NCBI RefSeq assembly: GCF_026151205.1
Contig: NC_087073.1
Location: forward strand, 16,015,837 to 16,079,836
Direction of reading: 5' to 3'
Origin: Bolinopsis microptera
Taxonomy: Eukaryota; Ctenophora; Tentaculata; Lobata; Bolinopsidae
Length of the DNA stretch: 64,000 nucleotides
Shown piece by piece: positions 3,745 to 64,000 of this stretch. Position 1 is the first letter of the stretch; every line of letters starts with the position of its first letter. The position numbers and the translations under genes are program-made. The notes beneath the pieces were generated by a model. That model had not been told where the DNA came from and did no database searches. It saw only the letters and a list, made by a program, of their open reading frames with translations.

Positions 3745-4646
3745 ATTGAAATAAATTTTCGTGCACATACAGAATGAATGGTTTATAATTTAATATATAT
3801 GTAGACCAAGCTCTGTGCACGGGATGCTTCCTGGAAGAATCCCGTTCTTTTAGCGGGGCACCCTACCTAAAGCCAAATTGAGATATGATAATCATATTCC
3901 TAGAGAAATAATCAGAAATCGAATACCAATCAAATAATATGATATATAGGAGTAGTAACCATATTTACTATGCAAAATGCCCCAACCACATAGTGTAAAT
4001 TTATATAAAATTCAAATTCCATATCATCACTAAACCTCAATAGTCAATATAATAGCCCAAGCATAATTAAATAACTTCTTATATACCTTACTGTCATACT
4101 ACAAATTAATTGAACATTTGAAATCTGTTAACCAGAGAATAAATTTCTAAACCTAATGCAAGTGAAATAATTTAGATGCAATAATGAATGCCTAATGTTA
4201 GTATCATCTGTCAATGTCCTTGTAAAACAGTCTGTACAAGAGATATGAGTAACTGATATAGAAGAAAAAAAACAGGAAGTTGTCGTCTGTTGAAAAATAA
4301 ATAAAATATCTAGAATATAAATTAGAATATAAAATAACATTCAGTCAATGTGTCGTCAATAAACTGTACAATTATCAAATGTTAAAACTGGGTGATACAG
4401 TCACCAAAAATAAATACTAAGTATAATAAGTTAATAAATTAAATGTGGTCTATAAAACTACCACTAGGTATAATAGGTCAATAAATTAAACGTGGTTTAT
4501 AAAACTACCACTGTGCGAACCCCTTCTCCAGTTAAAACATGTCAGTCATGTGCAAAATCAATCAGAATGCTAAGGTGGTAAAAAAGGGAATATCCTTTCG
4601 ATACATCAATTATATATGCCTCAGATTTAAAAGAATTAGAAGATAC
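3745..4646 (-). other. LINE 3' UTR of the older copy, with hairpin and tandem repeat
   Basis: Closely similar to the 3' UTR of the inner copy (6841-7741). A hairpin lies near the 3' end (about 3817-3846): ACGGGAT pairs with ATCCCGT and an inner TTCC pairs with GGAA. A roughly 45-bp unit ending TATAAAACTACCACT is present twice at about 4422-4512. The extreme 3' end reads ATTGAAATAAATTTTCG on the plus strand in both copies, so it defines the element terminus. ORFs in this part are shadows. Confidence 0.7.
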
Positions 4647-6840
4647 TTAGTTATCGTCGACTATGATTGCAGTGTAAAATTTGTCATATGAATTGTCGAC
4701 GGTATAATTAGGGTCTGTTGTTATAGATGAGAGTAGCTGTTTCTTATACGAATCACTAAAGCTTTTAACATCGGGCAGATTTCGTAGATCTGTTGGAACA
4801 TTATTCCAACATTTTGCCCCCAAGTATTGAAAGTTTTTATGTGATGTTGATCTATTAACATATAGGTTGCAGCTTTCGCCGCTCCTACTACCTCCTGATA
4901 TGTAACTAAATTTGTTCATAAAGTTTGTAGGACAATTGTCATGGATGATTCTAAACATATAATTTGACAGATGGAGTTGCCGTCTAAGATGGAGTGGTAA
5001 CCATTTCATGTCTCTATAAACATTAAGGCTGCTCTCTGTTTGTGGAACGTTGAGAGCTATTTTGGCTACCTTTTTGTACAGAGTGTCAAGTTCAGCAAGT
5101 TTTGTCTTGCCAGCTCTACAATAGATCGTGTCTAAATAATCGAATTGTGGCAACATGAGTGCATTGGCAAACATTTTCCTATATTTAATGGGTAGCAGTG
5201 CTTTACTTCTATACATGGCACCAATTCTCTTCACGACCTTCCTAATAATATAATCTACATGGCTTTTGAAGTTTAATTTACTATCTAGAATGAGGCCAAG
5301 ATATTTTGTCTCTTTGCACTCCTTGATTGTGAAAGTTACCGCATTACATTCAATAGTTAATTCATCATGTTGATCAACAGAATCAAACAATAGGAATTCA
5401 GTCTTCTTTTCATTGAGTGATAATTTATTAACGCTGAGCCATTTAAAGATTGTCATAAGTTCTATTTTCATGTTTATAAATGTGCTTCTGCAGGTTTGAT
5501 CAAAGAATAGTGCACCATCATCTGCAAATAGAAAGGGCTTAGATAGGTTACAGGCATAAATGATGTCATTTATGAAGATACTAAATAATATAGGCCCAAT
5601 GATGCTTCCTTGTGGTACACCACTAAGAACTTCTAAAAATGAGCTTAGTTTGCCATTGATCCTAGTGCATTGATATCTACAAGATAAGAAGTTTTTAAAC
5701 CAGGTTAAAGCAATGCCACCAATTCCATAATATGCCAATTTTTGAAGCAATATTTCATGATTCACTCTGTCAAAGGCCTTCTTAAGATCAAGAAAGGTGA
5801 TTCCTGGTTTATAAGACTTAGATTTACTCATATATATTTCGTCCATCAGATCGTACATCAAATAAGTTGTGGAGTGATTTTTCCGAAAGCCATATTGATG
5901 CCGGATGAAAAGTTTGTTCTCTTCCATGTAATCAGTGAGTTGCTTGCCGACAAAGTGTTCTATAAGTTTTCCTACAAGTGGAAGGATGGATATTGGCCTG
6001 TAATTATTAGGATCATCTTTCATTCCTGCCTTATGGATGGGAGTTACTCTAGCTTTTTTACAAAGGGTTGGTACAACACCTGTATTAAAGGCTCAAATTG
6101 ACAATATGGGTCAGTGGCTCAACTATGTGTGGTGCAGCTTGCTTAAGTAAAAATAGAGGCACATCGTCATATGAGGCCTTGTCATTCTTGAGCGTTTTGA
6201 CATACATTAGAATATCAGTTTCATTTATTTCTTGGAATCTATCAAATGAGATGTTAGAAGTTCTAGGAGGTAAAAAATCAGTAAAACTAACTCTTTCAAT
6301 ATTGGGGGCCTGATTTTGTAATCTTGATCCAACATTTGCAAAATGAAAGTTAAATAGCTCAGGATCATTCTCATTGATAGTTTGGCAATTAGTTGTACCA
6401 GGGGTCATATTTGATGCCAGTTTGATAGTTTTCCATATCCCTTTAAGATCATTCTTGGCACTTTTAACTTGTAGATCATCGATTACATTAGCCTTTTTGC
6501 AGGTTTTAGCTAATTTATTTCTAATATTTCTCTGAATCTTGTAGCAATCCCAGGCCTCATTACACTTTATACATTTGCTACATGTACCACATTTATTGCA
6601 ATTTCCATTGTCTCTCTTATTCTTCTTTTTACGGAATTTCTTTAGAAGAAAATGTGTATGATTAATGGCATTTAAAAGTTCAGTAGAAGGTTTATGTATA
6701 ATGAACTTTTCATGCCTTTCTATGGTCTTGCAAGGGAAGAAGGTTGCATATGCCTGTTCAATATGATGACAAAGGCCAGCAGTGATAGCTTCAACATCTG
6801 TACTTTCCAATAGTGGACTGTAATCAGAACAGGTATCTAG
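4647..6840 (-). pseudogene. ORF2 reverse transcriptase part of older LINE copy (frameshifted)
   Basis: Two open segments, 6840-6085 and 6023-4647, together match the linker and reverse transcriptase of the intact copy at 7742-10116. A single extra A near 6087 (TATTAAAGG versus TATTAAGG in the other copy) breaks the frame between them. The second segment holds the usual motifs: FLDLKKAFDRVNHEILL, LSGVPQGSIIGPILF and FLFADDGALFF (catalytic FADD), then the thumb and a C-terminal LINE tail with a WNNVPTDLR motif. The upstream segment carries a small cysteine cluster (CNKCGTCSKCIKCNEAWDC). It was once an enzyme for target-primed reverse transcription. Confidence 0.85.
6824..6840. repeat. Left target-site duplication of the inner LINE
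   Basis: TCAGAACAGGTATCTAG occurs here and at 13174-13190, immediately bordering the inner LINE copy. It is the coding sequence of the outer LINE ORF2 at the LDTCSD position, duplicated on insertion. It could be read as 19 bp, because the next two bases (AT) match too. Confidence 0.85.
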
Positions 6841-7741
6841 ATTGAAATAAATTTTCGTGCACATACAGAATGAATGGTTAATAATTTAATATATATGTAG
6901 ACCAAGGTCTGTGCACGGGATGCTTCCTGGAAGAATCCAGTTCTTTTAGCGGGGCACCCTACCTAAAGCCAAATTGAGATATAATAATCATATTCCTAGA
7001 GAAATAATCAGAAATCGAATACCAATCAAATAATATGATATATAGGAGTAGTAACCATATTTACTATGCAAAATGCCCCAACCACATAGTGTAAATTTAT
7101 ATAGAATTCAAATTCCATATCATCATTAAACCTCAATAGTCAATATAATAGCCCAAGCAAAATTAAATAACTTCTTATATATATATACCTTACTGTCATA
7201 CTACAAATTAATTAAACATTTGAAATCTGTTAACCAGAGAATAAATTTCTAAACCTAATGCAAGTGAAATAATTTAGATGCAATAATGAATGCCTAATGT
7301 GAGTATCATCTGTCAATGTCCTTGTAAAAAAGTCTGTAAAAGAGATATGAGTAACTAATATAGAAGAAAAAACAGGAAGTTGTCGTCTGTTGAAAAATAA
7401 ATAAAATATCTAGAATATAAATTAGAATATAAAATAACATTCAGTCAATGTGTCGTTAATAAACTGTACAATTATCAAATGTTAAAACTGGGTGATACAG
7501 TCACCAAAAATAAATACTAAGTATAATAAGTAAATAAATTAAATGTGGTCTATAAAACTACCACTAGGTATAATAGGTCAATAAATTAAAAGTGGTTTAT
7601 AAAACTACCACTGTGCGAACCCTTCCTCCAGTTAAAACATGTCAGTCATGTGCAAAATCAATCAAAAAAAGGTAAAAAAAGGGAAAATCCTTTCGATACA
7701 TCAATTATATATGCCTCAGATTTAAAAGAATTAGAAGATAC
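6841..7741 (-). other. LINE 3' UTR of the inner copy
   Basis: Aligns along its length with 3745-4646. It keeps the terminal sequence ATTGAAATAAATTTTCG (plus strand), the hairpin near 6918-6947 (one stem base changed relative to the older copy) and the doubled unit ending TATAAAACTACCACT at about 7518-7611. No gene is present. Confidence 0.7.
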
Positions 7742-10116
7742 TTAGTTATCGTCGACTATGATTGCAGTGTAAAATTTGTCATATGAATTGTCGACGGTAT
7801 AATTAGGGTCTGTTGTTATAGATGAGAGTAGCTGTTTCTTATACGAATCACTTAAGCTTTTAACATCGGGCAGATTTCGTAGATCTGTTGGAACATTATT
7901 CCAACATTTTGCCCCCAAGTATTGAAAGTTTTTATGTGATGTTGATCTATTAACATATAGGTTGCAGCTTTCGCCGCTCCTACTACCTCCTGATATGTAA
8001 CTAAATTTGTTCATAAAGTTTGTAGGACAATTGTCATGGATGATTCTAAACATATAATTTGACAGATGGAGTTGTCGTCTAAGATGGAGTGGTAACCATT
8101 TCATGTCTCTATAAACATTAAGGCTGCTCTCTGTTTGTGGAACGTTGAGAGCTATTTTGGCTACCTTTTTGTACAGAGTGTCAAGTTCAGCAAGTTTTGT
8201 CTTGCCAGCTCTACAATAGATCGTGTCTAAATAATCGAATTGTGGCAACATGAGTGCATTGGCAAACATTTTCCTATATTTAATGGGTAGCAGTGCTTTA
8301 CTTCTATACATGGCACCAATTCTCTTCATGACCTTCTTAATAATATAATCTACATGGCTTTTGAAGTTTAATTTACTATCTAGAATGAGGCCAAGATATT
8401 TTGTCTCTTTGCACTCCTTGATTGTGAAAGTTACCTCATTACATTCAATGGTTAATTCATCATGTTGATCAACAGAATCAAACAATAGGAATTCAGTCTT
8501 CGTTTCATTGAGTGATAATTTATTTACACTGAGCCATTTAAAGATTGTCATAAGTTCTATTTTCATGTTTATAAATGTGCTTCTGCAGGTTTGATCAAAG
8601 AATAGTGCACCATCATCTGCAAATAGAAAGGGCTTAGATAGGTTACAGGCATAAATGATGTCATTTATGAAGATACTAAATAATATAGGCCCAATGATGC
8701 TTCCTTGTGGTACACCACTCAGAACTTCTAAAAATGAGCTTATTTTGCCATTGATCCTTGTGCATTGATATCTACAAGATAAGAAGTTCTTAAACCAGGT
8801 TAAAGCAATGCCACCAATTCCATAATATGCCAATTTTTGAAGCAATATTTCATGATTCACTGTGTCAAAGGCCTTCTTAAGATCAAGAAAGATGATTCCT
8901 GGTTTATAAGACTTAGATTTACTCATATATATTTCGTCCATCAGATCGTACATCAAATAAGTTGTGGAGTGATTTTTCCGAAAGCCATATTGATGCCGGA
9001 TGAAAAGTTTGTTCTCTTCCATGTAATCGGTGAGTTGCTTGCCGACAAAGTATTCTATAAGTTTTCCTACAAGTGGAAGGATGGATATTGGCCTGTAATT
9101 ATTAGGATCATCTTTCATTCCTGCCTTATGGATGGGAGTTACTCTAGCTTTTTTACAAAGGGTTGGTACAACACCTGTATTAAGGCTCAAATTGACAATA
9201 TGGGTCAGTGGCTCAACTATGTGTGGTACAGCTTGCTTAAGTAAAAATAGAGGCACATCGTCATATGAGGCCTTGTCATTCTTGAGTGTTTCGACATACA
9301 TTAGGATATCAGTTTCATTTATTTCTTGGAATCTATCAAATGAGATGTTAGAAGTTCTAGGAGGTAAAAAATCAGTAAAACTAACTCTTTCAATATTGGG
9401 GGCCTGATTTTGTAATCTTGATCCAACATTTGCAAAATGAAAGTTAAATAGCTCAGGATCATTCTCATTGATAGTTTGACAATTAGTTGTACCAGGGGTC
9501 ATATTTGATGCCAGTTTGATAGTTTTCCATACCCCTTTAAGATCATTCTTGGCACTTTTAACTTGTAGATCATCGATTACATTAGCCTTTTTGCAGGTTT
9601 TAGCTAATTTATTTCTAATATTTCTCTGAATCTTGTAGCAATCCCAGGCCTCATTACACTTTATACATTTGCTACATATACCACATTTATTGCAATTTCC
9701 ATTGTCCCTCTTATCCTTCTTTTTACGGAATTTCTTTAGAAGAAAATGTGTATGATTAATGGCATTTAAAAGTTCAGTAGAAGGTTTATGTATGAACTTT
9801 TCATGCCTTTCTATGGTCTTGCAAGGGAAGCAGGTTGCATATGCCTGTTCAATATGATGACAAAGGCCAGCAGTGATAGCTTCAACATCTGTACTTTCCA
9901 ATAGTGGACTGTAATCAGAACAGGTATCTAGATAGTCTAAGAATTGTTTAACATTACGTTTACAATGATTTCTAATTTCAACCTTTTCAAATTTAGGAGC
10001 TATAGGTACTTGACAATCTATCTCACACATAATAGCTTGATGATCCCCAATACGTTCATCAAGAACAGAAGATTGAACAAAATCTGCATAACAGTTAGTG
10101 AATATTACATCAATAG
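7742..10116 (-). CDS. LINE ORF2, linker and reverse transcriptase (open frame)
   Basis: This is the C-terminal three quarters of the LINE ORF2 polyprotein, which copies element RNA into the nicked target. The endonuclease's last block (IDVIFTN, then GDHQAI) is joined to a linker with a cysteine cluster (CNKCGICSKCIKCNEAWDC) and to the polymerase. Polymerase motifs in order are NYRPISILPLVGKLIE, QYGFRKNHSTTYLMYDLM, FLDLKKAFDTVNHEILL, LSGVPQGSIIGPILF, FLFADDGALFF (metal-binding FADD) and KYLGLILDSKLNF, ending with the thumb and a WNNVPTDLR-containing tail. The frame is open from the MITE junction to the stop. The ATG-initiated reading that starts at 10198 begins inside the MITE and is not the natural start. 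Motifs fit the CR1/L2/Jockey group; I cannot place the clade exactly without a tree. Confidence 0.88.
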
Positions 10117-10699
10117 CAGGCACGTAGCCAGGGGGGGGGCTAGGGGGGCGGCAGCCCCCCCCCGGAAAAAATCGAACCCCAGAAAAAAGATAAGCCACCT
10201 AGTCCCCATGGTCGCCTGGTAACTGGGCTGTGTTTATGACTGCAGTCAGTCAAAGATTTGAACTGTGGATTAGTAAATATATGTCATTAAATCCAAGCAA
10301 ACATTCTAGAAGACTTCTATAATTATAGTCAATAGTGTCCCCTAGACCGTAGGAAATGTAAAAATCTTAAGACGATGAGGCCTGAGTAAGTCGTAAATTC
10401 TGATTGGAGAATGCAGATTGCTGTTGTGAAGTTACCAAATTTACGTGAGTACTTGATTCTTTTCAATCCCAGTTTATTGCTGTCCTACAAATTTCTTTAA
10501 TGCCAAATGTCGTCTAAAACACCCTGTTTCCCAAAAAAATTCCGGGGGGCTGCGCCCCCCTAGCCCCCGCCAAGGGGCTCCGCCCCTGGACCCCTGCCAC
10601 AGCTTGCTCGCTTCGCTCGCTGCGCAGCTTGATTGGACGCGTCGGCTCGCTTCGCTCGCCGACAGCCCCCCTCAAAGAAAAATCCTGGCTACGTCCCTG
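10117..10699. mobile_element. hAT-type MITE inside LINE ORF2
   Basis: Terminal inverted repeats CAGGCACGTAGCCAGG and CCTGGCTACGTCCCTG bound a 583-bp insertion. ATCAATAG is duplicated on both sides (10109-10116 and 10700-10707). The uninterrupted site is visible in the other LINE copy near 13368, where ATCAATAG occurs once. An 8-bp duplication with CAGNG ends is typical of hAT elements. The interior has C/G-rich runs and no transposase. Confidence 0.92.
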
Positions 10700-11310
10700 A
10701 TCAATAGTAGTCTGGGTAAAATTGTCTCCACGTTTAGCAACTCTAGTTATCCCTTGAATGGTTTGAACTAGATTGTAACATCTCAAGGTCATATCTAATT
10801 TTTTGTACTGGGTGGATGAGATATTATTCTGGTCAATGTTTATATCCCCAATCCAGATAACCTTTTTTCCGTTCAATTTTTTCATGCAAAAATGAATGTA
10901 CTCAATAAAGTTATCAACACTGCAATAATTTCCAGAGCGATAGAAGCAGCAAACATTGATCTTGCTATTCTTAAGCTTCACCCATAATGCTTCAATGTTA
11001 TCAAGCTTACTATCCATAACTAATTCTGTGTAAGCTAGTTTTTTGTTTATCATTAAGCCACAACCACCCCTAGAACTGTTTGGCCTGTCGCATCGCATAA
11101 TGTTGAAGGAGGAAGGAATATTTATGGTGTCTGTGTCAATAGTATCATTAAGATTCATCTCATTTAGGGAAAGTATGTCTAGCTTATGATCTCGAATGAG
11201 TTGAGTAAGTTCATTACTTTTAGCTAAATTTAGGAGACCACCTTGAATGTTACAGTGACCAATGCAAAGGTTAAATGAAATTTGTCAGCTGAGTTGTGAA
11301 TATTTGTCAT
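10700..11310 (-). pseudogene. LINE ORF2 N-terminus, APE-type endonuclease (inner copy)
   Basis: Encodes the apurinic/apyrimidinic-type endonuclease that nicks the target. Motifs in order: GHCNIQGGLLNL, DILSLNE, SSRGGCGLMI, VCCFYRSGN, VIWIGDINID and TTIDVIFTN, with GDHQAI across the MITE. The likely start is the ATG at 11310 (MTNIHNSADK). Compared with the older copy, two extra bases near 11271-11275 shift the frame between this start and the first catalytic block. The protein from that start would therefore be lost unless translation begins downstream (for example at 11158). The MITE separates it from the polymerase. Confidence 0.8.
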
Positions 11311-11445
11311 TTCACAAAACGTGTTAGTCGTTGTGTCTGATTAAACTAAAATCAGGTGAAAATTATCTGCCTGTAAATATTTTCAATAGAAAAGTTTTAA
11401 ACTTGAAATCAAAATAAATATTCAGGTGGAAATGTCATGTTGATT

Positions 11446-13047
11446 TCAATGGTGGGCATGGTACTTGATGTGCTTTGCTAGTTTAAAGATACCATCGCTG
11501 TTTAGATGCACATTGTCTTCCCCAAATCTACTAAAACAAGATGATTTCCTAAATCCAGATCTATCACTAAACAAAAATCGATTCATCTCTGTGGGTATAA
11601 AGCTAACAAACGAGTATTTGGAAGGAATCTTAGATAAAAAGATATTGATGTCATTTATCACTTTATTTCTAGCAAAACTTTCTCTTGGTAAAATGTTTAT
11701 GATCTTAATTTTTGCAGCTGGAGCCCACAAGTGAAGTGACTGGATCAGATTATCAATAGAGCGATTGGTGTTATCAAGGGCCTTTGCTTTTCCTGTGAAC
11801 TCATCGGGTGACAATAATCTATTCCTCATGTGTCGAGGACTCTCTAGGATTAAGTCCACATCATTAGTTCCACACATGAGTACGATGGTCTTCACATTAT
11901 TTGCATCAATTGACCTCTTTCTTTCATCTGAGTGGAAGCGTTCATTGATACCGTTTGCAATGCCACCAGGATAGTGAAATACATGTGCTTCTTGATGAGC
12001 AGAGGATAGTTTTGTAGCATCTAACTTGCTTGAGCTAACATACACAGCAAGGGATTTGCTTTTGACTGAAGCAGGGGGTACGGTGCTCTTATGAGTGATT
12101 TTGTTGGGTGATGATTTCCCTTTGATTGAGGGTTCAGTTTCTCTTACAGTAACGAAAGGCTTACTTGAGGTATCGGGTGGAGCAGACAAGGTTGCACTGC
12201 CATCAATCTGGCGCAGAGTAATGCTAATTCTCATGTCATCAGTATGGTCCTGAATAAGGCTGTGTTCAAAGCTGTCCTGAGATTTTCTGGTCATAATCAT
12301 TATGTCGCCATGGGAGAGAGTAAGATTGGCAACGTGGACTTTGCTTTTAGACCTAAAACTGAGGACTCTTGTTGCTCCTAACGATATGGTGGAAATCATG
12401 GAGCCTGGTGATATGGACCTCTCATCATCTGAATGGAATGGTATTCCTTGCTTGCCATTTTCGTACTTGGTGATCATGGCGCTGTTAAATTTCAGACTTG
12501 GGAACTGTGAGCGTAAACGTTCTAAAATAGACTTTAATAAGGGATTGTCATTTAACGGCCTTGTGTTATGGAAGCCTCCATTGTAGGCATATGGGAAATC
12601 CCCATAGTATGCTACAGCCCTATTGTTGAACGTTTGTGTGTATTGTGTTTCCATATCCAACTTGAGAGTATCAACAAACCTGAATACACCTCGACTCAAA
12701 TCATGATATGGATTGATGGACTTACCCACAACGTTAACACTGGTTGAAGATTGTTTGTTAACATCAGAAGAATTCACAAGAGATGGGTTGCTATTAAGTT
12801 CAGTCACACTGCTAACTTCACAGTTTTGAGTTTCTGATTCATGTTCAGAGATAAGAACATTGTCCCTGCAAGAGAATGGAACCGCAATTTTGTCATGGCC
12901 TGAGCCTTGGGTAAGTTTGGTTAGACGAGCAATTTGTCTCCTCAAATTGTCGTTTTCAAGACTTAGTGATATACAGGTAGAACATTTTGCTTTTGCACTG
13001 TTAGGTCTGTCACGAAGGCTGTAATTTCTGATTGGGATACCGGACAT
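11446..13047 (-). CDS. LINE ORF1: AlkB-like dioxygenase fused to SGNH esterase
   Basis: Intact 533-aa ORF1 protein. Residues 1-50 hold a CSTC pair and a short coiled-coil-like stretch. Residues about 108-282 are an AlkB-type Fe(II)/2-oxoglutarate dioxygenase domain: YYGDFPYAYNGGFHNTRP (147-164), MITKYENGKQGIPFHSDDE with iron ligands H205 and D207, ISLGATRVLSFR, distal ligand H262 (FEHSL), and R273/R279 in RISITLR, the 2-oxoglutarate-binding signature. The HSDDER..PGS block is most like ALKBH2/3 and plant-virus AlkB domains. Residues about 330-533 are an SGNH/GDSL-type hydrolase: block III MCGTNDVD (391-398) and block V EDNVHLNSDG (D511, H514). The block I GDS is replaced by VSSS (337-340). 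Esterase domains are known in CR1-type ORF1 proteins; AlkB activity would oxidatively demethylate nucleic acid. That role here is inference. Confidence 0.88.
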   Translation of the reverse strand: MSGIPIRNYSLRDRPNSAKAKCSTCISLSLENDNLRRQIARLTKLTQGSGHDKIAVPFSCRDNVLISEHESETQNCEVSSVTELNSNPSLVNSSDVNKQSSTSVNVVGKSINPYHDLSRGVFRFVDTLKLDMETQYTQTFNNRAVAYYGDFPYAYNGGFHNTRPLNDNPLLKSILERLRSQFPSLKFNSAMITKYENGKQGIPFHSDDERSISPGSMISTISLGATRVLSFRSKSKVHVANLTLSHGDIMIMTRKSQDSFEHSLIQDHTDDMRISITLRQIDGSATLSAPPDTSSKPFVTVRETEPSIKGKSSPNKITHKSTVPPASVKSKSLAVYVSSSKLDATKLSSAHQEAHVFHYPGGIANGINERFHSDERKRSIDANNVKTIVLMCGTNDVDLILESPRHMRNRLLSPDEFTGKAKALDNTNRSIDNLIQSLHLWAPAAKIKIINILPRESFARNKVINDINIFLSKIPSKYSFVSFIPTEMNRFLFSDRSGFRKSSCFSRFGEDNVHLNSDGIFKLAKHIKYHAHH

Positions 13048-13173
13048 AGTTCAAATAAACACAATAATGCAAAGAATTCAGGATAGAGTCTAAAACCGAT
13101 GCTACTGTTTATAGTTATTTAGTTGTTGATTACAGTACCTTTGCAGCAATTCAGAAGATGGGAATGAGTGGTG
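13048..13173 (-). other. 5' UTR of inner LINE
   Basis: Short leader upstream of ORF1. It shares GATGCTACTGTT and GATTACAGTACCTTTG with the leader of the older copy (about 16629-16716), so both copies reach nearly the same 5' end. An apparent ORF reading from the outer copy's endonuclease into this leader (to 13119) is a chimera across the junction. Confidence 0.6.
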
Positions 13174-14068
13174 TCAGAACAGGTATCTAGATAGTCTAAG
13201 AATTGTTTAACATTACGTTTACAATGATTTCTAATTTCAACCTTTTCAAATTTAGGAGCTATAGGTACTTTACAATCTATCTCACACATAATAGCTTGAT
13301 GATCCCCAATACGTTCATCAAGAACAGAAGATTGAACAAAATCTGCATAACAGTTAGTGAATATTACATCAATAGTAGTCTGGGTAAAATTGTCTCCACG
13401 TTTAGCAACTCTAGTTATCCCTTGAATGGTTTGAACTAGATTGTAGCATCTCAAGGTCATATCTAATTTTTTGTATTGGGTGGATGAGATATTATTCTGG
13501 TCAATGTTTATATCCCCAATCCAGATAACCTTTTTCCCATTCAATTTTTTCATGCAAAAATGAATGTACTCAATAAAGTTATCAACACTGCAATAATTTC
13601 CAGAGCGATAGAAGCAGCAAACATTGATCTTGCTATTCTTAAGCTTCACCCATAATGCTTCAATGTTATCAAGCTTACTATCCATAACTAATTCTGTGTA
13701 AGCTAGTTTTTTGTTTATCATTAAGCCACAACCACCCCTAGAACTGTTTGGCCTGTCACATCGCATAAGGTTGAAGGAGGAAGGAATATTTATGGTGTCT
13801 GTGTCAATAGTATCATTAAGATTCATCTCTGAATACAGGTTACATCAAATGTTCAGTAGATATTATGTACTTGGACAGAGTGTAAAACGTGTGTACATCA
13901 CTATTTTCAAAGATTCATCTCATTTAGGGAAAGTATGTCTAATTTATGATCTCTAATAAGTTGGGAAAGTTCATTACTTTTAGCTAAATTAAGAAGCCCT
14001 CCTTGAATGTTACAATGACCAATGCAGAGGTTGTGAAACCTATCAGCTGCATTATTAAAATTTGTCAT
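13174..14068 (-). pseudogene. LINE ORF2 endonuclease of the older copy (interrupted)
   Basis: Starts at ATG 14068 (MTNFNNAADR) and runs in frame through GHCNIQGGLLNL to DILSLNEMNL. An 80-bp insertion (13830-13909) with a 12-bp duplication (AAGATTCATCTC at 13818-13829 and 13910-13921) then brings in a stop. The frame resumes at 13826 (MNLNDTIDTD) with RGGCGLMI, VCCFYRSGN, IWIGDINID, TTIDVIFTN and GDHQAI. It ends at FLDYLDTCSD, where the inner LINE begins. The polymerase half continues at 6840. Confidence 0.85.
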
Positions 14069-15229
14069 CTTGTGAATCTTATTAATTCACAATGGAATGA
14101 ATAAAAGTTGTAAAGTTGTGTTTAAACTAAAAAACAGAATAAAAGCAGGTTGTATTTGTCTGGATGTCGTACTGTAAAAATAAAACTGATGGTAAAAGTG
14201 TTATGTCAGTATTCAGCAGTATTCTAATGGTGTGCATGATACTTCAAGTGCCTTGCTAATTTAACTATGCCATAATCATTGAGATGGACATTATCCTCTC
14301 CATAACTACTAAAAAATGACGATTTTCTAAAGCCTTTCTTATCACTAAACAAGAAACGATTTCTCTCGGTTGAGAGCAGTTTTACATAGGTGTATTTTCT
14401 TTGCAGATTTGACATACATTCATTGATATCTGTTATAACCTTGTTTCTGGAGAAACTCTCCCGAGGTTATAAGTTAACAATTTTAATATCAGCTCCAGGT
14501 GCCCACTTGTGAAGGAAAAGTACAAGTTTTTCAATACAATTGTTTGTAAAGTCAAGAGCTCTAGCATCACCAGAAAAACTATCAGGGCACAGAAGTTTAG
14601 TCCTCATGTTGCGAGGGCTGTTCAGGATAGAGTCCACGTCATTTGTACCACACATAAGTACAATGCTTTTCACATTATTGGTATTAAGAGTGTCTTTTCT
14701 TACATCTGATTGAAACCGTTCATTGATTGCATTGGCTGTGGCGCCAGGGTAGCTGAATACATGTGCCTCATGATGTTTGGACGATAGCTTTTCTTCCTCT
14801 AATTTGGAGAACATACTAGAGCTAATGTCTATGACACACAAAGATTTACCAGAATTTTCTATTGATCTAGTCTTAGGGGCCGAGGGTTCAGTGTTCTTAA
14901 CTTGACTGATGTTCTTGAGGGATGGTTTACATACGATTGAGGGCACAGTTTCTTTAAGATCTATCATGTTGTGTGAAAGTTTACTGGAAACATCAGACAG
15001 AGTAGATAAGGTTGCGCTGCCATCAATTAGGCGCAGAGTAATGCTTATTCTCATGGTTTCAGACTTGTCCTGGATGAGGCTGTGTTCAAAGCTGGTCTGG
15101 GATTGTCTGGTCATATTCATTATGTCTCCATGGGAGAGGGTAAGGTCAGCAATATGAGCTCTAAGTTTGGATCTGAAGCTTAGGACTCTAGTAGCCCCTG
15201 AACTCTAAAGAGATGGTGGATATCATGGA

Positions 15230-15885
15230 CCCAGTGACATAAAGTGAGGAATCTAAGAATCTAATTCCTAGCCATATTAATTTCCATAGCCACGCCGACT
15301 AATTTTTGTCAACAAAATTATTAAATCAACTTTAAAATAGTCGCTCTCGGTTGTTACACACTGTAACGCCGCGCACTGTACTTTAATTCTATATTTATCT
15401 GAGAAGATGTTCGAATCGAGCGCAAATGGCAGATTCCTGTCAGGATCCTAGTTCTTGCGCTTAACTTGCGCGTTACCAAATAATCCAAGATATTTCTGTC
15501 AGGATCCAAGATTTTCCTACTACCAGTATGGTAGTATGGACTGTTTGGTAGTATGGTAGTATGGTAGTTGCAGGAACGCGCGAAGACTTATATGTAAATA
15601 TTACTAAAGCGTACATGGAATCGTATCCTAGTCGGTTAATCCGTCGGTACTATATTAGCAGATCGCGAGTTCGAGACCCGGAAAGGAATTTTTTCACAAT
15701 CTTTTGGCAATTATGAATAACTATACTAATGAATTAATAACTATACTAATGTAAAAGTAAAATGAAATCGTTATCCGGCCGCGGAGCGGCCGAAAAATTT
15801 ATGGTAGTCGTTTTAAAAATATATGGTAGCCGTTTTTTCTTTCCAGACTGGATTCCTAGTCCCTTTTTAAATTTATGTCACTGGG
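15230..15885. mobile_element. 656-bp MITE in older LINE ORF1, 8-bp duplication
   Basis: Begins CCCAGTGACATAAA and ends TTTATGTCACTGGG (14-bp terminal inverted repeat). ATCATGGA is duplicated at 15222-15229 and 15886-15893, and the inner LINE has the site once and uninterrupted. The 8-bp duplication suggests a hAT-, P- or Novosib-like origin; the ends are not classic hAT. It contains a short GGTAGTAT-type tandem (about 15526-15566) and a tRNA-like segment. Confidence 0.85.
15626..15687 (+). other. tRNA-derived-looking segment (possible SINE head)
   Basis: Contains GCGAGTTCGAGACCCGG with an exact Pol III B-box match (GTTCGAGAC to GWTCRANNC). An A-box-like TAGTCGGTTAATCCGTCGG lies about 35 bp upstream. 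The stems of a full cloverleaf do not pair well, so this is a tRNA relic or SINE-type promoter rather than a working tRNA gene. Confidence 0.4.
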
Positions 15886-16716
15886 ATCATGGAGCCTGGT
15901 GAAATTGACCTCTCGTCATCCGAGTGAAAGGGAATTCCTTGCTGACCATTTCTATACTTGGTAATCATAGCACTATTGAATTTCAACTTTGGGAACTGTG
16001 AGCGTAAGCGTTCTAAAATAGACTTTAGGTAGGGATTGTCTGCTACTGGCCTTGTGTTATGAAAGCCTCCATTGTAAGCGTAGGGAAAGTCCCCATAATA
16101 TGCAACTGTCCTATTCTCAAACTCATGATTATAGTGGGTTTCTATATCTAACTTGGCAGTGTCAACAAACTGAAAAACTCCTCGACTCAAATCTTGGTAT
16201 GGATTGATAGAGTTGGTCACACCATTGACACCATTTACAGAGTGTTTGGGATTTTCCGAATTGATAATTTCTGCTGAATGTTCACTGTCTTCTGCTAATT
16301 TGGATAGCTCTTGGGTTAACTCAGAAACAAGATGCGAAGATGAGCTATTACTGAGGGGAACATTGATAGAATGTTCACAGTGATCAGGTACCTGGGGCAA
16401 CACAGGGACAAGTGAACCATCGCTGAGGGGAACTTTGAGTGCACTGTCACTTTCTGATAATTGTTTATAGAGAATAGAAATTTGCCGACAAAGACGATCA
16501 TTCTCTCTTAATAGAGTTAAACAATTTGAACATTTATCAGTAGGACGAGAGCCATTATTGGGGAATTTAACAGCATACCCTCGATATCTCAGATTGTAAT
16601 CTCTTGAGCCAACTGGTATTCTAGACATAGTTTATCACAAAGAGATGCTACTGTTCGAAATTTAGTTAATGATTACAGTACCTTTGTAGCACTCCGGAGG
16701 ATAAGGATAAGTGATG

Positions 16717-16963
16717 TCTGATAATCTTTAGGTGATAGATGGGAGTAAACTGCTTTAAAAATCGATGTCTGATAGTCCTTAGGATGTCTTTAAGATAAAT
16801 TTATCATGCAACAACCATTTACATTGACATACAACCTGTAATGGTCGTTACATTTACCGAGGCATTAGTTCCCACTGGGGGTCCTCAATAAATGTAATAG
16901 ATTTGTAGTGTTGTAATTAGTTTAAAACTCAGGATGATACAGAAGGAATGTATTCATATAATA
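16717..16963. other. Spacer beside LINE, no gene
   Basis: Holds two imperfect copies of GATGTCTGATA(A/G)TC(T/C)TTAGG about 54 bp apart (the first starts at about 16713, at the LINE edge; the second at about 16767). Nothing else is recognised. Confidence 0.4.
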
Positions 16964-27700: not shown

Positions 27701-30700
27701 ACTGTCCGCTCTCATGGCCCTCACATAATATATGAACAGGCCCAGAAGAGCACTTCCTAGCATCAATATGAAGATCGCCATGATCAGGAGGGTCGAGTCT
27801 TCAATTTCTTTCATTGCTTCAAACTGTGGATTTTCTGGATCAAAGGATCAAGCAGATTACAACGTAAGGTGAGTGTTACAAGCAAATCTGTGCAGACCAT
27901 TAGTTGCTAGGCTATTTATAGCAGCCCACGTGCAGCTTGTTAATTTTTGCTCAACTTCATCTGATCTGCACTTGTATGTGATCTGCAAAGTTATGTTCTT
28001 CATATGTGGGACCATTCTTTAACCATTTCTTATAAGAACAAGGCCGGCGATGGAAGGCAGTTCATTGATTTTGTTCCTGCTGGGAAAAGAAAAGCAGGTA
28101 CAGACGACCGGAAGGAGAGTCGTGGTTTTGGGATCTTGAGTGGGTATCGGGATTGGATAGTGCTGTCAGACCTTGAGGGGCAGCTTAAGTTTCCCAATGA
28201 GATTGTGGAAACACGGCTGAGGCCGGACCTTGTGATATTCTCAAGGTCGGCAAAGACAGTTATTTGGTGGGAGCTAACAGTACCATCTGAAGAGCGGATC
28301 GCTGAATCGCACGAGTACAAGCTCGACCGATACAGCGGTCTGCAGGCTGAGATTCAGGCGAAAGGTTGGTGCTGTTATAATGCCGCAGTCGAAGTTGGAG
28401 CTAGGGGAGTGGTTGCGCAGAGTTTGGAGAGAGCTGCAAGGATGATTGGTTTTAGGGGAAGAGAGCTGAAGAAGCTGGTACGGGACAGCGGGAAAGAGGC
28501 AGCCCACTGTTCCAGATGGATTTACTTGTTATCGAGAAAGAGGGAGTGGGAGTTCAGGAAGGTTGGAGCTTGAGAGTTCACTATAACATCTAGAGGTACC
28601 ATAAACGTTATCTCGTCGCCAATTGCGAGCTCTAACGGGTCTCCTCAAGTGACTCTCGGATCAGATGGTGGTTCAAGGGTGGACTGCTGGGGCGCCTGAC
28701 AGGAAACCGTATTGCGATTAAAGCCCCGAAACGGTGTCAGGTTGGTAACTGATGATTCTGATCCATGCTCCTGTGAGTTTGCTGTTGTATCTCAACTCGC
28801 TAAACTGAGGCATCTCCGCATCTTGGGTGAATATGGGGGTGATGCAACGTCAATTAATGTCAGTATTCCATAAAAACCCCAAACTGACATTGACATTAAT
28901 TGACATTAATTGACATTAATCGACATTAATTGACATTAATTGACATTAATTGACATTAATTTGTCTTGAAATTTGAGATTATCATTATTCGATAAATATT
29001 CAATCTAGGTAAACTATAGGTAAAAATATAATATTAATCATAAGCTAAAATGTACTAATCTTTGTATTCTAAATGGGGAAAAAGAAGAAACATTGTCAGT
29101 CAGTCGAGAAAATTGTCAGTCAGGCTATATGGCAGCTTTGTAGATGTTGTGACTATGCTAGTAGTGGTCCCAGGCTTGCGACTGGAATTGCGGTGTTAAA
29201 TCGATTTAATGGTACCAACGATCCACCTCCCACTTGTTGTTTGGTACTTAGCATTAATAGTGTTAGCTGTAGCCATTTATAGCAAGAATCTTAAAACTAA
29301 AGGGGATGACAAGGAAAAGAGGAAGGAAAAAGAATAACGGGACAAACAATTAATTGAAGTATTCATAGGAGCATTAGATATTGTAATTACAAGCTTCAAT
29401 AATAAATCACTGACTAAAACTTCTAATTAAAATGACACTTGGTACGCTCGCCCATTTTCACTGGTCAGTCTGAACTTCGGTTTAGCACGTTGTACACTTA
29501 TTCACCTAAGTTTCAGAATTTGTTCAGTTTAGCAGAGTTAGTACCCGTGTTTCAATAAATCAAAAGATATCAGGGGAGTTCTTTAATAATGTTACGGTCA
29601 TCTAGAATACCGAACTTCCTGAAAACGTTATCATATTTCCTCAGACAACGTTTAATGCCTTTAATCAGTCTATCACGGCTATATCCTCTATCAATTAGAA
29701 TTTTGAATATTTTGTGAAGATGGGAGGTAAAGATATCCAATCTAGTGCAAACATTACCATATCTAAGAACTTGACTTGAAAAAACGTTGTAGCCAACCTC
29801 GGTTGGGATGTTACTGTGAGGAAATGTAAGGGATACAACATGAAAATTAAAATCATCAGTTTTGTTATACACTGATATTTCTAGTCCTTCTGTGGAAATA
29901 TTAATATTTAAATCAAGGTAGTTAATGATTTTATTATTGGAACCAGCTCGCTCCATCTCCAATGAATTAGGATAAATATCTTTAATCAATTTATGAAAGT
30001 AAAGGTAGTTAATAATAGATAAATCGTCAACATATCGTTTATTATTGGATAATATCTTTGCTAATCCCATTTTCTTTTCCTGAAGTAAACGTTTCATATA
30101 ATTAAATTCCTTTTTGCCAACAGTGAGATCAGCTATAGGGGAACTTGAATTTCCACCCATAGGAATACCCTTGGTTTGTATGAATACAATCCCACCGAAG
30201 ACGACATAAGTGTTATAAATAATAAATTTAACAGCCTCTTTTAGGTCATCTTGACTAAAGCAGGCATGAGAATCATAGGTTTTATTGGAAAAGAAACATG
30301 TATTACTGTCTCTTTTAGAAATACAAATATATCTATTACGGTCTGAAAATATTAAATCAACAACTTCATTAATCATATTCTCTACTTCAATCAAGTCTAA
30401 TCTGGTATAAAGAGTAGTAAAATCATATACTTGTATATTATAAACATCGCTATTTTTGATAGCTTCAAGGAATTCACTTGAGGAATCTATGCTCCAAAAC
30501 ATGTTTATACCGCTGTTGTTGTAGATTGCCTCGCAGTATTTCTTGAAGTATTTCCTCAAAAGTTTCAGACAGCAGTTAACTTGGACGTTAAGTTGTTTCG
30601 TAACGCAAAAACGGGCACCTGCAATGAACCTCGCCTTGTAAGGGTTCTTATGAAGCTTAGGGTTCCAGAAGATGCGTGCTAGTCGCAAGTTTTTATCTTC

Positions 30701-33700
30701 AACTTGTACATTAAATCTCTCCTTTAGACTCTCAGATATTTTATTGACATAATGAGTCTCGTCTTCGCTACAGGGTTTACAAGATATTCACGTCTATGTA
30801 AGTTAGACCGGTTCAAAAAAACAAAATGTCCTTGAATAATTATGAGTATGTTCTTATCTGTTGATCCTTAGCTTCAAAGACCACCAAAAAAAATTTCAGC
30901 TTCCAACTCTTCCATCTTCGGTCCCCACCGGCCACGCCCATATTTTATTGGTTTCTTATACAGGTAAAATATCTAGAATCTGCTTTTTTAGTATGAAGGA
31001 GTAATGTTAACTGTTTAAGATTCGTTATTCAAATATAAATGTCATGAAGGCATTTCGTTTAATGTGGGTTTTAAGTTCTGATGATGTTGAGAACCACGCC
31101 CTTGGATGGCCACGCCCATTTAAGAAAATTTAATTTCGGAAAACCGTATTATTTTAGTTTTATTGTTTAATGATCTGAATTTTTTCACATTTCACATTTC
31201 CATATGTGATAGTAGTGAATAAATTGATGATATAAACGTTCTAAAGTGCTAAAAATATGGTAGAACTACATAATCTCTGGTCGAAAAATATCGTGTCAAT
31301 TAATGTCAGTATTCCAAAATTTTGCAAAACTGACATTGACATTAATTGACATTAATTGACATTAATTGACATTAATTGACATTAATTGACATTAATTGAC
31401 GTTGCATTCCCCCCGTGAATATGCGTACATCTTCATACTAAACCCAGGTGTGGCATGTGTCAGTGAATACGGGCGAGCGGATGCAATAGCGAAGGTGGTG
31501 TGGCAAGGCCTAAAAGACACAGTCAGATAGTTGTCAGCTCCGTATTTCGCTGCTACTGATGCAGTCCTTGATCTGGCAATCAAGGCTTCTCTGTTTTTCG
31601 TCTAACTATGTACCGTTGGGCTTGTGGAACCCGTAGGGGGGACATACATAGGTTAGAATGGTTTTGTGCACCAAGAGGAGTGAGGGAATGAGGGTTGAAG
31701 AGAGAGAGAGCTAGAGAGTTGTTAGGGTGGTTAGGATCAGTGGGTGGAGTGTTTGGTTGGAGCGTTCTGTTTTTGCTGTATAGCATTTTAGTCACTCCGC
31801 AGTTTATTAACTGTGTCTCAACTCTAAAAATAGTTAACATGATAATTTGGAGGGTATTCTGCATACTTGATATATATAATAAATTGATATATATAATAAA
31901 TTCAGCGTTACATGAGTACTGAGAAGGGGTCAGAAAGACGATTTACAATATGGCGCGGTCGACGAATGTCTTTTAGGTGTTAAAACACTAGCGCCTTCAT
32001 CACATTTTACCGCCACGCGCATTATTATATATATACAGGGTGGCCCAAAAGTGACTACCCACACGCAACCTCTTAATAACTCACGTAATTCGTCTCCAAA
32101 TTGCACCCAAATTTCAGAGATTATAGATATGGGTCAAACTTAGATTTCCTGAAAGTTTCGTAAGCCACGCCCAATTACAGTGGGCGTAGCGTGACACTCC
32201 CTCTTTTTCACTATTGTCTTCTTCTTGTATTATATATATACTAGTGTAACCCGGCCTTCGGCCGGGATTTCACTGCCGCAGTTAAAAAGGGTAGGAGTAA
32301 TTACCTGTTGAGTCAAAACCCGCATTTGGTGAGCAATTCTATTCGGAGTGCCCTCACGTCGTATCCAATGGTATCAAGTAAACAATAGAAATTAACCCTT
32401 AACACCATGCACCACACCCGCCTATCATATTTGTGGACATGCATTACAATGTCGTATGAAAGTATGAACTCTCTCTACAGTCCAAACAGACCGTTTGAGC
32501 TCTCCCTCCCCTAATAAGTTTATAATATTACATCACCATGTAATATATTATTATCTAACTTTTAAAACAATCTCGAAATAGTAAAGAAACATCTTAAGAG
32601 ACTGATAAGTGCCCAAAAAAATGTAATATATACGCCATGTAATATATACGCTACATAATATTATGCAGAGAGAGCTAGCCCCGTAACTCTTGCCGTTCAG
32701 CTCAAGCCATTTTATGTAACATTTGTGGTACAAAACCGTCAATTAAACCACTTACCACCGACCGATTTAAAAAACCTTTTTCATTTAACTTCGCCAGAGT
32801 TTTGTCGGCACTTTACCGAAAAAATCAGCCCCGTAACTCTTACCGTTTTCTTGATTAAGCTGCTCGGAAATTACAAACAGACAGACAGAAAACACACATT
32901 CTGGGATTATTAGTTAGATTAATTGATCGTCAATTGAGTGCGCTGCATTGCTTTAATTTATACCTCTGTAATCATGCCATGATTATCCTGATGTGATCAT
33001 CTTGACCAATGAATTATTAATTAATTTAAACTGTATATTTTACTGCTCGATACAGTCGAAAGTTAATTTCTGAATGCATAGCTGACCCGTTCGGTTTTAA
33101 AATTAAGGTTGGGGTTCTAAATCGATTTCCTTTTGTCCTTGGAGGCTGGAGCCACAGAGTAGAGAGGAGAAATCACAAGTAAGCTTAATTTAATAATCCT
33201 CACTCCGTCACCACTCGATCACATGATACAATTCCAGTTCTGCCCTCCCACAAGCTGCTCAACAAACAATTATCTCAAGCTCAAGTTGATAGACCGTGTG
33301 AGACTGGTATTATCTATGAGAAGTTCACAGGAGCAATTAACCTACTCTCCCAGAAGTTCACAGGGCTTGTTAAGAGATTGCCATTAAATTATATATTTTC
33401 TAACATTGAGCAGTTCTTTCTAAATTTGGAATACTTCTTAGTAACAACACAAATTGGTTTAAAAATATACTGAAATTAAATGTGCTCTTAAAACTGTGAA
33501 ACGCTAACACCCGGCCTGCAATTAAGGTTAACACTTCTAATTATAGAAGTCGTATGACAAGATTGTAAAGGACGACTATCATTTATTTAAAATCATATCT
33601 GGCGCTTCGATTTTCCCAGAGCTAGGCGAACTGAATCCGACGGTTATCATTCTTCTCCTACGTGCACATTTACTGACGTTCCCAGATTGAAGTTTATCTC

Positions 33701-55343: not shown

Positions 55344-58300
55344 ATGAATGTGTCGCTTCATGTTTGGATTATTGTTGCAGCAGCTGCTACTCTTTGGGGT
55401 CTTTGTGTGATACTTGGTAAGTACTTTAGCTTTTATATTGTTGCTTGAAGTTAATTCCTAAAATTCTCAGCGTATTTATTGATAAGTTGTGGGCATTTAC
55501 GCAGTTTGTATAATAACGTAATATCGTAGAGCTAAGTGCATCGACTTTCAGGTTGTTTTGAGTTTATATGTTGGTCACGCAAACAGTGGCTTTTGAGAAG
55601 GCAGAGTGCTAGGAGGGTGACATATCATCGTGTTTCAATCAATGCTTTAGATGGTGTAAGTTTGATAGCCGACTCAGTTATTTCAAATTTACTTAAATAT
55701 TAAGAAGTTCAGTATTGCACTATGAATAGCTTTTTCGTGAATTTGATATTTTTGTATTTAATTACTTCGTGATGATGGGTCTAATAAATTTAGGACATAG
55801 AGATTAGTATATCAGAAGATGCTGTCCCCAGAGTGTCTTCACCACCTCCTATTGATGATGGAATTCCAGGACCATCAGGAATAAACGTTAGTAACCTCAG
55901 TTTTCATTTGTTAGTTAATCAGTTGTGCAGGCTAAAAATGTTCTAATCGAAAATTAATTAAATTGTTATGTAGCTTTACTTGTAGAGGGTAGATTCCTCT
56001 AATTTACTTATTCGTCATGTTATTCGGATTTTTTTAACGAGATATGTATCCCTCATTATTTTTTTAGAGAGGAGAAACGGGTCCTGAATCCAAGATCAAA
56101 GGAATTAGCCTCTTACAAGATCAAGAGAGAGCAAAACTTGGAGACGCAACGAATGCAAAGCTAGTATGTGTTCTATGTGAAAAAGAAGAAAAATATCCGG
56201 AGCGTGATTTGCAAGGTAAAATAATAGTTAAGTTAGTTATATTTTAGTTAAATACGAATTAAATTGAATTACTTTTAAGGGACAGGTTTGTTACTATACT
56301 AACAGAGTAACTTGGCGGTTATTTTGAGTGTAACTTTTTTAAACGTGACGAAGCTTAATTCAACAGGAGATGACGATAAACGAAAGCTGGTATACGAAGC
56401 TGCCATAAAAATGGGGGATAGCAAAGTTCTAGACAACATTGCTAAATGTCGTGATACTTTTCGCTTCCACAACCAGTACAAGTATAATAAAATGAAAAAT
56501 CCGAAGCAGTGCTTTAAAACCTATATGAAAAGAACCAAACGATTCAAACCCAAATCAACATCGAAAGATATATCTCAAGAAGAAAAAATGTCCTGTGAAA
56601 CTACAAAGAGAAAACGTGAAAGCACCAGATCTAGATCAGCAAGCGGAGAGGTACCTGACCAACCAAGTAAGAGATCTAAAGCTACAAAATGCTCCGTCTG
56701 TCAAAAGCATCAAACAGGATCATGGCCAAATCAAACCTCACAGTTATACAGAGTATCTGAGATGAAAATGGGATCTACACGGGCTTCAAAATTTTTGAGT
56801 GCAATGGCATTTAACGAGGATCATCTCCACCAGCAGTATATCTATTGCCAGTCCGTAGGTGACATCTTTGCGGCTGACATTTACTATCACAATGCATGCA
56901 TGAGCTCGTACCTGATTTCTTATGAGAGACAAGTTGAAAAACTTATGAACAATTTTCTGAGAGAAAGTGAAGAGAATATTTATGATGACGGATTGAAGGG
57001 GGTATTCGAAAAGCTTGATTTTGAAACCCAAGCTTACAAGCTGACTGATATCACAAAGACTATAAACAATGATCTAGATCTTAATTACAATAATCGAGCT
57101 ACAAAATTCAATCTGATCAAATTCTTAGGAGAGGATATATCATTTTCCTACCCTAAAGACAGATCTGTGTCCCAGATAGTGTTTAAGCCGTCAGTTCCAG
57201 TATCTGGAATTATTGAACATAACCTTAGAGATCGTGATGTAATTATGGAATGTGCAAAAATCTTGTCAGCTGAGATCAGTTCATACAAATTTGAATTGGA
57301 AAACAGTTTGTGCTTGCCCAGTGATTTGGCTATATGTTTAGAGCGATTCAAAGATGCGAGACCGCCTCAGTGGTTGAAGTTTATCTCGAAACTTTTCTCG
57401 GGCAGAAAATGTACGCAGGGAGATTCATGGTTTCTCAAATTCGATGCATCATTTCAGTTCTTCTCAAATTGGATATCTGGGCTTAAGACACCGATGCATT
57501 GTGGCATAACCCAAGCTGTTCATTGTCTGACAAAGTCAAGAGAACTTATTGACATCATCAACAGGTTTGGCTTTGGAATAGGCTACGATTCAATGAAAAG
57601 AGACGACATTGAAATGGCTCAGACAGATATCGATACTGCGGGAAAGGATCGATGCCCAGTGAATAATTCCATAAAACCTGGAATTCCGATCCAAGGAGCT
57701 GTGGATAATTTCAACCACAAGGAAAGAACTGATAGTGGGGGAGATGTCAGCAACGATACTGTACTAGTCATATGGCAGAATGGAAAAGAGGATGATTTGG
57801 AACTAAGGAGCATGAGTAAGCGTGACACGACCAAATACGCTGTAGACAGAAAGCGGAGTCTGCAGCACACATTACCTTGCCAGCAGCTAATGACGTCGCA
57901 GCTTGCTAAAAATTCAGGAGAAATAAACGAGGAGTTCTCGCCAATAACTGCTCACATACACAAGAACTCAATTTTGACTGAAGTGAACGACGATTTCTTT
58001 GCATGGTTTGTATCCAGACTCAAAGGTACAAACGATATCCCCAATTTTACTGCTTTGCTCAGTAAATTAACCTCTAGGGAAGTTAGAATGATGACAGCAA
58101 GATCATTTATCCCGATACTGCCGTATCCTGCCACCTTGATGGACAGCATCTACACATCTATGATGAATTTCAAAGATGTGCTGCATCAGAGAGGCGAAAG
58201 TTCTGGAGCACTATGGTGTGATGAAGGGGTGTACTGTCTGGCAAAAGACATACAACTATTGAAACCGGAATTGTTCGGATCAATTTTTTTAGGTCTTGGC

Positions 58301-62939: not shown

Positions 62940-64000
62940 TGCGGGAGATTGTAGAAAGTGCGGGAGATTACAGAAAGGAGGAAGATTGTACAGAAAGGAG
63001 GGAGATTGTAGAAAGGAGGGAGATTGTAGAAAGGAGGGAGATTGTAGAAAGGAGGGAGATTGTAGAAAGGAGGGAGATTGTAAAAGGAGGGAGATTGTAG
63101 AAAGGAGGGAGATTGTAGAAAGGAGGGAGATTGTAGAAAGTAGGGAGATTGTAGAAAGTAGGGAGGTTGTAGAAAGGATGGAGATTGTAGAAAGGAGGGA
63201 GATTGTAGAAAGGAGGGAGGTTGTAGAAAGGAGTGAGATTGTAGAAAGTAGTGAGATTGTAGAAAGGAGGGAGGTTGTAGAAAGGAGGGAGATTGTAGAA
63301 AGGAGGGAGATTGTAGAAAGGAGGGAGATTGTAGAAAGGAGGAGATTGTAGAAAGGAGGGAGATTGTAGAAAGGAGGAGATTGTAGAAAGTAGGGAGATT
63401 GTAGAAAGTAGGGAGATTGTAGAAAGGAAGGAGATTGTAGAAAGGAGGGAGATTGTAGAAAAGAGGGAGATTGTAGAAAGGAGGGAGGTTGTAGAAAGGA
63501 GGGAGGTTGTAGAAAGGAGGGATATTGTAGAAAGTGCGGGAGATTGTAGAAAGGAGGGAGATTGTAGAAAGGAGGGAGGTTGTAGAAAGGAGGGATATTG
63601 TAGAAAGGAGGGAGGTTGTAGAAAGGAGGGATATTGTAGAAAGGAGGGAGATTGTAGAAAGGAGGGAGATTGTAGAAAGGAGTGAGATTGTAGAAAGTAG
63701 TGAGATTGTAGAAAGGAGGGAGATTGTAGAAAGGAGGGAGATTGTAGAAAGGAGGAAGATTGTAGAAAGGAGGGAGATTGTAGAAAGGAGGGAGATTGTA
63801 GAAAGGAGGGAGATTGTAGAAAGGAGGGAGATTGTAGAAAGGAGGGAGATTGTAGAAAGGAGGGAGGTTGTAGAAAGGAGGGAGATCGTAGAAAGGAGGG
63901 AGATCGTAGAAAGGAGGGAGATTGTAGAAAGGAGGGAGATTGTAGAAAGGAGGGAGATTGTAGAAAGGAGGGAGATTGTAGAAAGGAGGGAGATTGTAGA
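62940..64000 (+). repeat. 18-bp minisatellite, about 59 units, runs off the window
   Basis: Unit GGGAGATTGTAGAAAGGA, with variants (AGTAGG, AGGTTG, GATATTG, GATCG) and a few 17-bp units. Because 18 is a multiple of three, two frames stay open over long stretches (repeating EIVERR and GDCRKE), while the third meets TAG in every unit. This explains the two ORFs here; I do not call them genes. Confidence 0.97.

Follow-up and report, generated by a model that had tools for sequence, protein, structure and literature searches.

Within a 64,000-nucleotide stretch of the Bolinopsis microptera genome (assembly GCF_026151205.1, contig NC_087073.1, positions 16,015,837 to 16,079,836 of the forward strand; hereafter the window), we find a long interspersed nuclear element (LINE) whose first open reading frame (ORF1) is, as judged from its sequence and predicted structure, a type IV (esterase) LINE ORF1 to which a conserved AlkB dioxygenase of the repair type has been added. 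Such an AlkB-SGNH fusion had been proposed from the letters of the window alone (the original prediction), and support for it comes from the sequence, from conservation across the family and from the predicted structure. The uninterrupted 533-residue frame lies at the expected coordinates on the minus strand, a detail that had gone unstated. The parts of ORF1, in window coordinates, are:

11446 to 13047, minus strand: ORF1, 533 amino acids, with probable coiled coil, AlkB domain, linker and SGNH esterase (reading frame, Pfam and model)
12907 to 12981, minus strand: predicted helix, residues 23-47, beginning at CxxC (model)
12196 to 12723, minus strand: AlkB domain, residues 109-284 (Pfam, PDB sequence matches and predicted structure)
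12427 to 12435, minus strand: iron ligands H205-S-D207, kept in 56/56 aligned rows
12262 to 12264, minus strand: iron ligand H262, kept in 56/56 aligned rows
12211 to 12231, minus strand: RISITLR with the 2-oxoglutarate arginines R273 and R279, kept in 56/56 aligned rows
11449 to 12060, minus strand: SGNH esterase domain, residues 330-533 (family profile, predicted structure and alignment)
12025 to 12036, minus strand: esterase block I, here reading SSSK, with three residues (MFS in the relative P0002) absent after the serines

Residues 152-279 match the Pfam family 2OG-FeII_Oxy_2 (E 4.1e-18), a sequence match far beyond chance, and residues ~142-281 match the PDB chains of ALKBH3 and ALKBH2 (E 1e-13 to 2e-11). 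The double-stranded beta-helix on which the original prediction had staked the domain is present in the predicted structure, and the iron ligands, its second stake, are invariant across the 56 aligned sequences. The motifs H205-x-D207, H262 and R273/R279 in RISITLR read precisely as had been written, as do HSDDER, ISLGATR and the esterase blocks GTND and DNVHLN. Structure comparison of the model placed ALKBH2 nearest, the matching entries being double-stranded DNA complexes, with ALKBH3 matches (single-stranded DNA complexes) level within 1 Z. When scored as a family, the LINE AlkB domains match ALKBH2/3 far above ALKBH5, and their closest relationship is not to the ALKBH5-type erasers of N6-methyladenosine (m6A). 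Human ALKBH2 and ALKBH3 are the nearest solved structures and sequences, sharing the same ligands and the HSDDE/GATR context; they are, however, cellular single-domain repair proteins, whereas the LINE AlkBs form their own clade with a shortened hairpin.

The type IV assignment draws on the N-terminal helix, the C-terminal SGNH fold and a match to a solved LINE esterase. Residues 23-47 were modeled as a single helix, at mostly low confidence, and probably form a coiled coil. By Pfam alone the esterase is weak (E 0.079, under the curated cut-off); the family profile matches the zebrafish ZfL2-1 ORF1 esterase (PDB 4c1b, E 9.7e-4), and the predicted structure of residues 330-533 shows the SGNH fold. 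With gaps scored as misses, the SGNH blocks are kept in the family at G361 (53/56), N395 (55/56), D511 (53/56) and H514 (53/56). Block I reads SSSM (49), GDSM (3), HDSM (1) or HDSI (1) in 54 of the 56 aligned rows, the exceptions being the SSSK of the window element and P0035, which ends near block I. The description of ORF1 as "intact" therefore stands for the reading frame, which has no internal stop, but not for block I, where three residues are lost although serines S338-S340 are retained.

The family search returned 57 proteins, 55 of which entered the alignment (A1); P0037, a gene model that is Gag-like at its N-terminus and duplicates P0035 in its AlkB part, and P0039, which is without an AlkB Pfam domain, were omitted. 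Precomputed Pfam annotation placed an AlkB domain in 56/57 of these relatives and SGNH/GDSL also in 11/57, and the aligned AlkB-bearing relatives carry the esterase blocks as well. The five named relatives all belong to the ctenophore Mnemiopsis leidyi, and the nearest relative, P0002 (97% identity to P0001), belongs to a cluster representing 43 sequences. The two domains co-diverge, as shown from the aligned sequences: mean pairwise identity is 0.432 for AlkB and 0.438 for the esterase, compared with 0.216 in the N-terminus and 0.145 in the linker (49 of 56 rows), their distances correlate (Mantel r 0.845, 49 rows), and the domain trees (52 rows) have 21 supported splits in common. In a midpoint-rooted tree of 177 AlkB domains, which includes few named animal AlkBs and from which 3 of 180 rows, including P0058, were removed for coverage, all 55 LINE rows and 8 further metagenomic rows formed one clade (support 0.92), separate from ALKBH2, from ALKBH3 and from AlkBs of the bacterial type. 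This single clade reads as one capture of AlkB, long retained, from a donor that the tree does not identify. Four further AlkB proteins of 166-197 residues (P0062, P0063, P0065 and P0066), seen among 120 of 397 matches, group with the LINE clade and could represent other types of retroelement ORF1, or fragments.

The element carrying this ORF1, copy 1, is bounded by a target-site duplication (TSD) and contains a second frame (ORF2) downstream of ORF1 on the same strand:

6843 to 13173, minus strand: LINE copy 1, TSD-bounded, 6331 bp, of which 583 bp are a later insertion
13174 to 13192: TSD, 5' side, a 19-bp perfect direct repeat
6824 to 6842: TSD, 3' side
10708 to 11284, minus strand: endonuclease (Exo_endo_phos) portion of ORF2, as far as the insertion (Pfam E 3.6e-8)
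7742 to 10108, minus strand: remainder of ORF2 with the reverse transcriptase (RVT_1, E 2.4e-35)
10117 to 10699: later insertion in the endonuclease region, 583 bp, flanked on each side by the 8-bp duplication ATCAATAG and having inverted termini
13174 to 16721, minus strand: older LINE copy 2, 5' part, with a broken ORF1 (14227-16628) and the start of ORF2
3745 to 6842, minus strand: older LINE copy 2, 3' part, split from the 5' part by copy 1 (97.9% identity to copy 1)

The endonuclease and reverse transcriptase of ORF2 and the 19-bp TSD (TCAGAACAGGTATCTAGAT) identify the element as a LINE. Its closest solved reverse transcriptases are those of R2 and LINE-1 (E 8e-12 to 5e-11 at best), the only two such structures in the PDB. 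BLAST of 7000-13200 against the window found no sequence repeated at the two ends of copy 1, as long terminal repeats (LTRs) would be, and the final 157 bases at its 3' end, aligned separately, matched copy 2 only. At the 5' ends, a 62-nt similarity between the copies extends to 13178, such that up to 5 bp of the 5' TSD may be the element's own 5' end. Relative to copy 2, ORF2 of copy 1 is broken by the 583-bp insertion and by a frame shift near its start. The insertion has inverted termini CAGG[C/G]ACGTAGCCAGG, is hAT-like by these and its 8-bp duplication, and has a matching empty site in copy 2 at 13368.

Copy 1 is inserted into the older copy 2, whose broken ORF1 carries the same AlkB and esterase domains. 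The copies are 97.9% identical across 3104 columns of ORF2 and the 3' regions, and 98.7% and 99.0% identical in the endonuclease region, yet their ORF1s share merely 54-60% amino acid identity (41-84% in 100-base steps). Identity climbs sharply between ~11290 and 11190, from diverged ORF1 to near-identical ORF2, a step that suggests the ORF1 module was swapped between lineages. Reticulate ORF1 evolution is documented for CR1 and L2 elements in the portion of PMC4120745 we consulted. Copy 2 has insertions of its own at 15233-15885 and 13830-13909; one splits its ORF1 within the AlkB domain and the shorter one lies in the endonuclease region.

Resemblance to ALKBH2/3 favors 1-methyladenosine (m1A) and 3-methylcytidine (m3C) type lesions over m6A, and the role put forward in the original prediction, repair or erasure of methyl marks, is a plausible candidate. 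The segment before R143 distinguishes the LINE domains from their cellular relatives, with the pattern hydrophobic-G-x(3-8)-R present in 92/112 cellular rows versus 0/56 LINE rows (two of which, P0057 and P0058, begin too far in to be scored). The cellular set excludes two human fragments and 10 rows judged LINE-like, two of them short rows assessed visually and the others by the tree. In several LINE rows the segment reads FG-x-R, making the hairpin ~5 residues shorter; the equivalent hairpin of ALKBH2 carries the duplex-probing F102. The titles of PDB entries 4mg2 and 4mgt name ALKBH2 F102A and R110A. Due to the shortened hairpin, single-stranded RNA or cDNA appears the likelier substrate.

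Watson-Crick-face lesions such as m1A and m3C hinder reverse transcription. In the ordered two-template relay method (OTTR), which uses the R2 reverse transcriptase, m1A and m3C are described as impeding synthesis, and AlkB removes both and raises the capture of most 3' tRNA halves (as excerpted from PMC12140624). The course we infer, with its particle formation, catalytic activity, substrate, timing and benefit, would begin with element RNA coated by multimers of the ORF1 protein (ORF1p), whose AlkB domain would oxidatively strip m1A and m3C from that RNA or from exposed single-stranded cDNA. Lesion removal would precede and accompany target-primed reverse transcription, allowing ORF2p to copy the whole template, and a LINE copying several kb of RNA in a single target-primed run would profit from an eraser held by its coat protein. 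Despite a near-neutral median charge, the AlkB domain could additionally give RNA contact. The esterase would help attach the particle to membranes or lipids, following what has been proposed for other ORF1s of this type; its lipid or membrane binding is assumed after PMC3905857. That ORF1 of this endonuclease-bearing LINE joins a demethylase lifting m1A/m3C from element RNA or cDNA to an esterase providing membrane or lipid attachment we put at about even. A more ambitious version, in which a LINE lineage with its own direct-reversal repair chemically proofreads its RNA template and single-stranded cDNA by AlkB, clearing alkyl lesions that block the polymerase so that target-primed copying reaches full length, while the esterase tethers the particle to membranes, following a single ancient capture, long co-evolution and exchange of ORF1 among ORF2 lineages, we consider possible but less likely than not.

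Several points limit or weigh against this demethylase reading. Copy 1 itself carries damage in ORF2 and in block I of the esterase. The relatives having been found by similarity, conservation of the ligands is in part an effect of ascertainment, and an active site kept from an ancestor does not tell which substrate it serves. Between copies 1 and 2, the AlkB domain shows nonsynonymous and synonymous divergence (dN and dS) of 0.126 and 1.055, a ratio of 0.12, and the linker a ratio of 0.42, with dS saturated in the N-terminus and esterase; coming from one pair with dS ~1 and probable recombination, these ratios are supportive and no more. Recombination inside ORF1 is likely: P0003 groups with P0001/P0002 in the AlkB tree and with P0004 in the esterase tree, and is one of two pairs in conflict. 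Over 51 rows the AlkB domain has a median isoelectric point (pI) of 6.36 and a median net charge of -2 (P0001 pI 9.16), which gives no clear sign of a general RNA-binding surface. Finally, AlkB treatment changed intact tRNAs only modestly in the OTTR excerpt (PMC12140624).

In one alternative, the AlkB domain might erase host-placed regulatory methyl marks such as m6A on element RNA, thereby escaping surveillance. In its favor stands the paALKBH5-like frame of a Phalaenopsis Ty3/Gypsy element, which is also the nearest precedent for a LINE with AlkB. That retrotransposon-encoded AlkB has the same ligand set and, as abstracted from PMC9289625, demethylates m6A single-stranded RNA in vitro, its H448A mutant retaining RNA binding; the active-site residues are conserved in the LINE family as well. 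The orchid element is, however, an LTR retrotransposon with a separate frame of the ALKBH5 branch and m6A activity (PMC9289625, same excerpt), whereas the window holds a LINE with an ALKBH2/3-like domain fused to an esterase in ORF1; the precedent belongs to another AlkB branch. The orchid domain nests among ALKBH5 homologues, in contrast to the ALKBH2/3 scores of the LINE family, and an m6A eraser need not benefit a LINE, since in mammals METTL3 aids and ALKBH5 suppresses L1 (PMC7873242, in part). We consider such evasion unlikely.

A DNA-directed role, in which AlkB would act during integration to repair alkylated bases, or unmask them, in DNA of the target site or in the newly made cDNA/DNA duplex, would suit the top structural match, ALKBH2 in complex with double-stranded DNA; ALKBH3 with single-stranded DNA ties within 1 Z. 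Against it, the hairpin that bears F102 in ALKBH2 is shortened in the LINE family, and we regard this role as about as unlikely as evasion. The AlkB fold may otherwise help ORF1p to bind nucleic acids or to assemble, with catalysis unimportant. Esterase ORF1s are described without a recognised RNA-binding domain (PMC3905857, in part) and the orchid protein still binds after losing catalysis (PMC9289625, in part), but five ligands are invariant in 56/56 rows although the domain averages 43% pairwise identity, and the near-neutral median charge also speaks against binding, making this reading improbable. Chance or artefact, with a cellular AlkB gene lying beside LINE debris or wrongly assembled into it, has already been refuted as an account of the fusion and is negligible overall: genomic context comes from one window only, but both LINE copies bear the fusion, 56/57 relatives have the AlkB domain with esterase blocks in those aligned, and one cluster holds 43 sequences at 97% identity to P0001.

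The AlkB-bearing ORF1 otherwise resembles the esterase ORF1 of CR1/L2-type LINEs such as ZfL2-1, with its N-terminal helix or coiled coil, ill-conserved linker and C-terminal SGNH esterase (PMC3905857, partial text), differing in the ~175-residue AlkB domain that precedes the esterase. Among RepBase esterase ORF1s, that text reports none with a structural RNA-binding domain and treats the mode of RNA contact as an open question. The ORF1 domain table in the available part of PMC4120745 comprises PHD, RRM, CCHC, Tnp22, zf/lz and esterase, AlkB not being among them. Within the open-licence literature searched we found no LINE with AlkB, and the consulted sections of both ORF1 surveys (PMC3905857, PMC4120745) name none; an earlier, unnoticed Repbase deposition is quite possible. 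The plant viruses of the Flexiviridae likewise carry AlkB in a selfish RNA-based replicon, where it is said to prefer RNA (PMC8234929, in part), but differ in host, gene context and replication mode, a likeness drawn from description.

The window holds other features. A 405-residue frame at 29570-30787 (minus strand), without a Pfam match at E 0.01, contains DFTTLYT and YVDD motifs resembling a Penelope-type reverse transcriptase. At 27965-28573 (plus strand), a 202-residue frame without a Pfam match has an RPDLV...WWELTVP stretch, which resembles a restriction-type nuclease. A 1569-residue open frame at 56303-61012 (plus strand) has a cysteine-rich C-terminus and no Pfam match at E 0.01, and a tandem array with strong purine bias (18-bp unit, 58.7 copies) runs from 62943 to 64000 and continues past the window end.

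What ORF1 proteins do is one of the more poorly understood aspects of LINEs. If ORF1 keeps a conserved demethylase, this suggests that damage to the template, or its modification, holds back retrotransposition enough to favor an element-borne eraser, and the LINE AlkB is a directly testable enzyme. It would carry over the finding from one plant LTR element to non-LTR elements, with another AlkB branch and hence probably another substrate.
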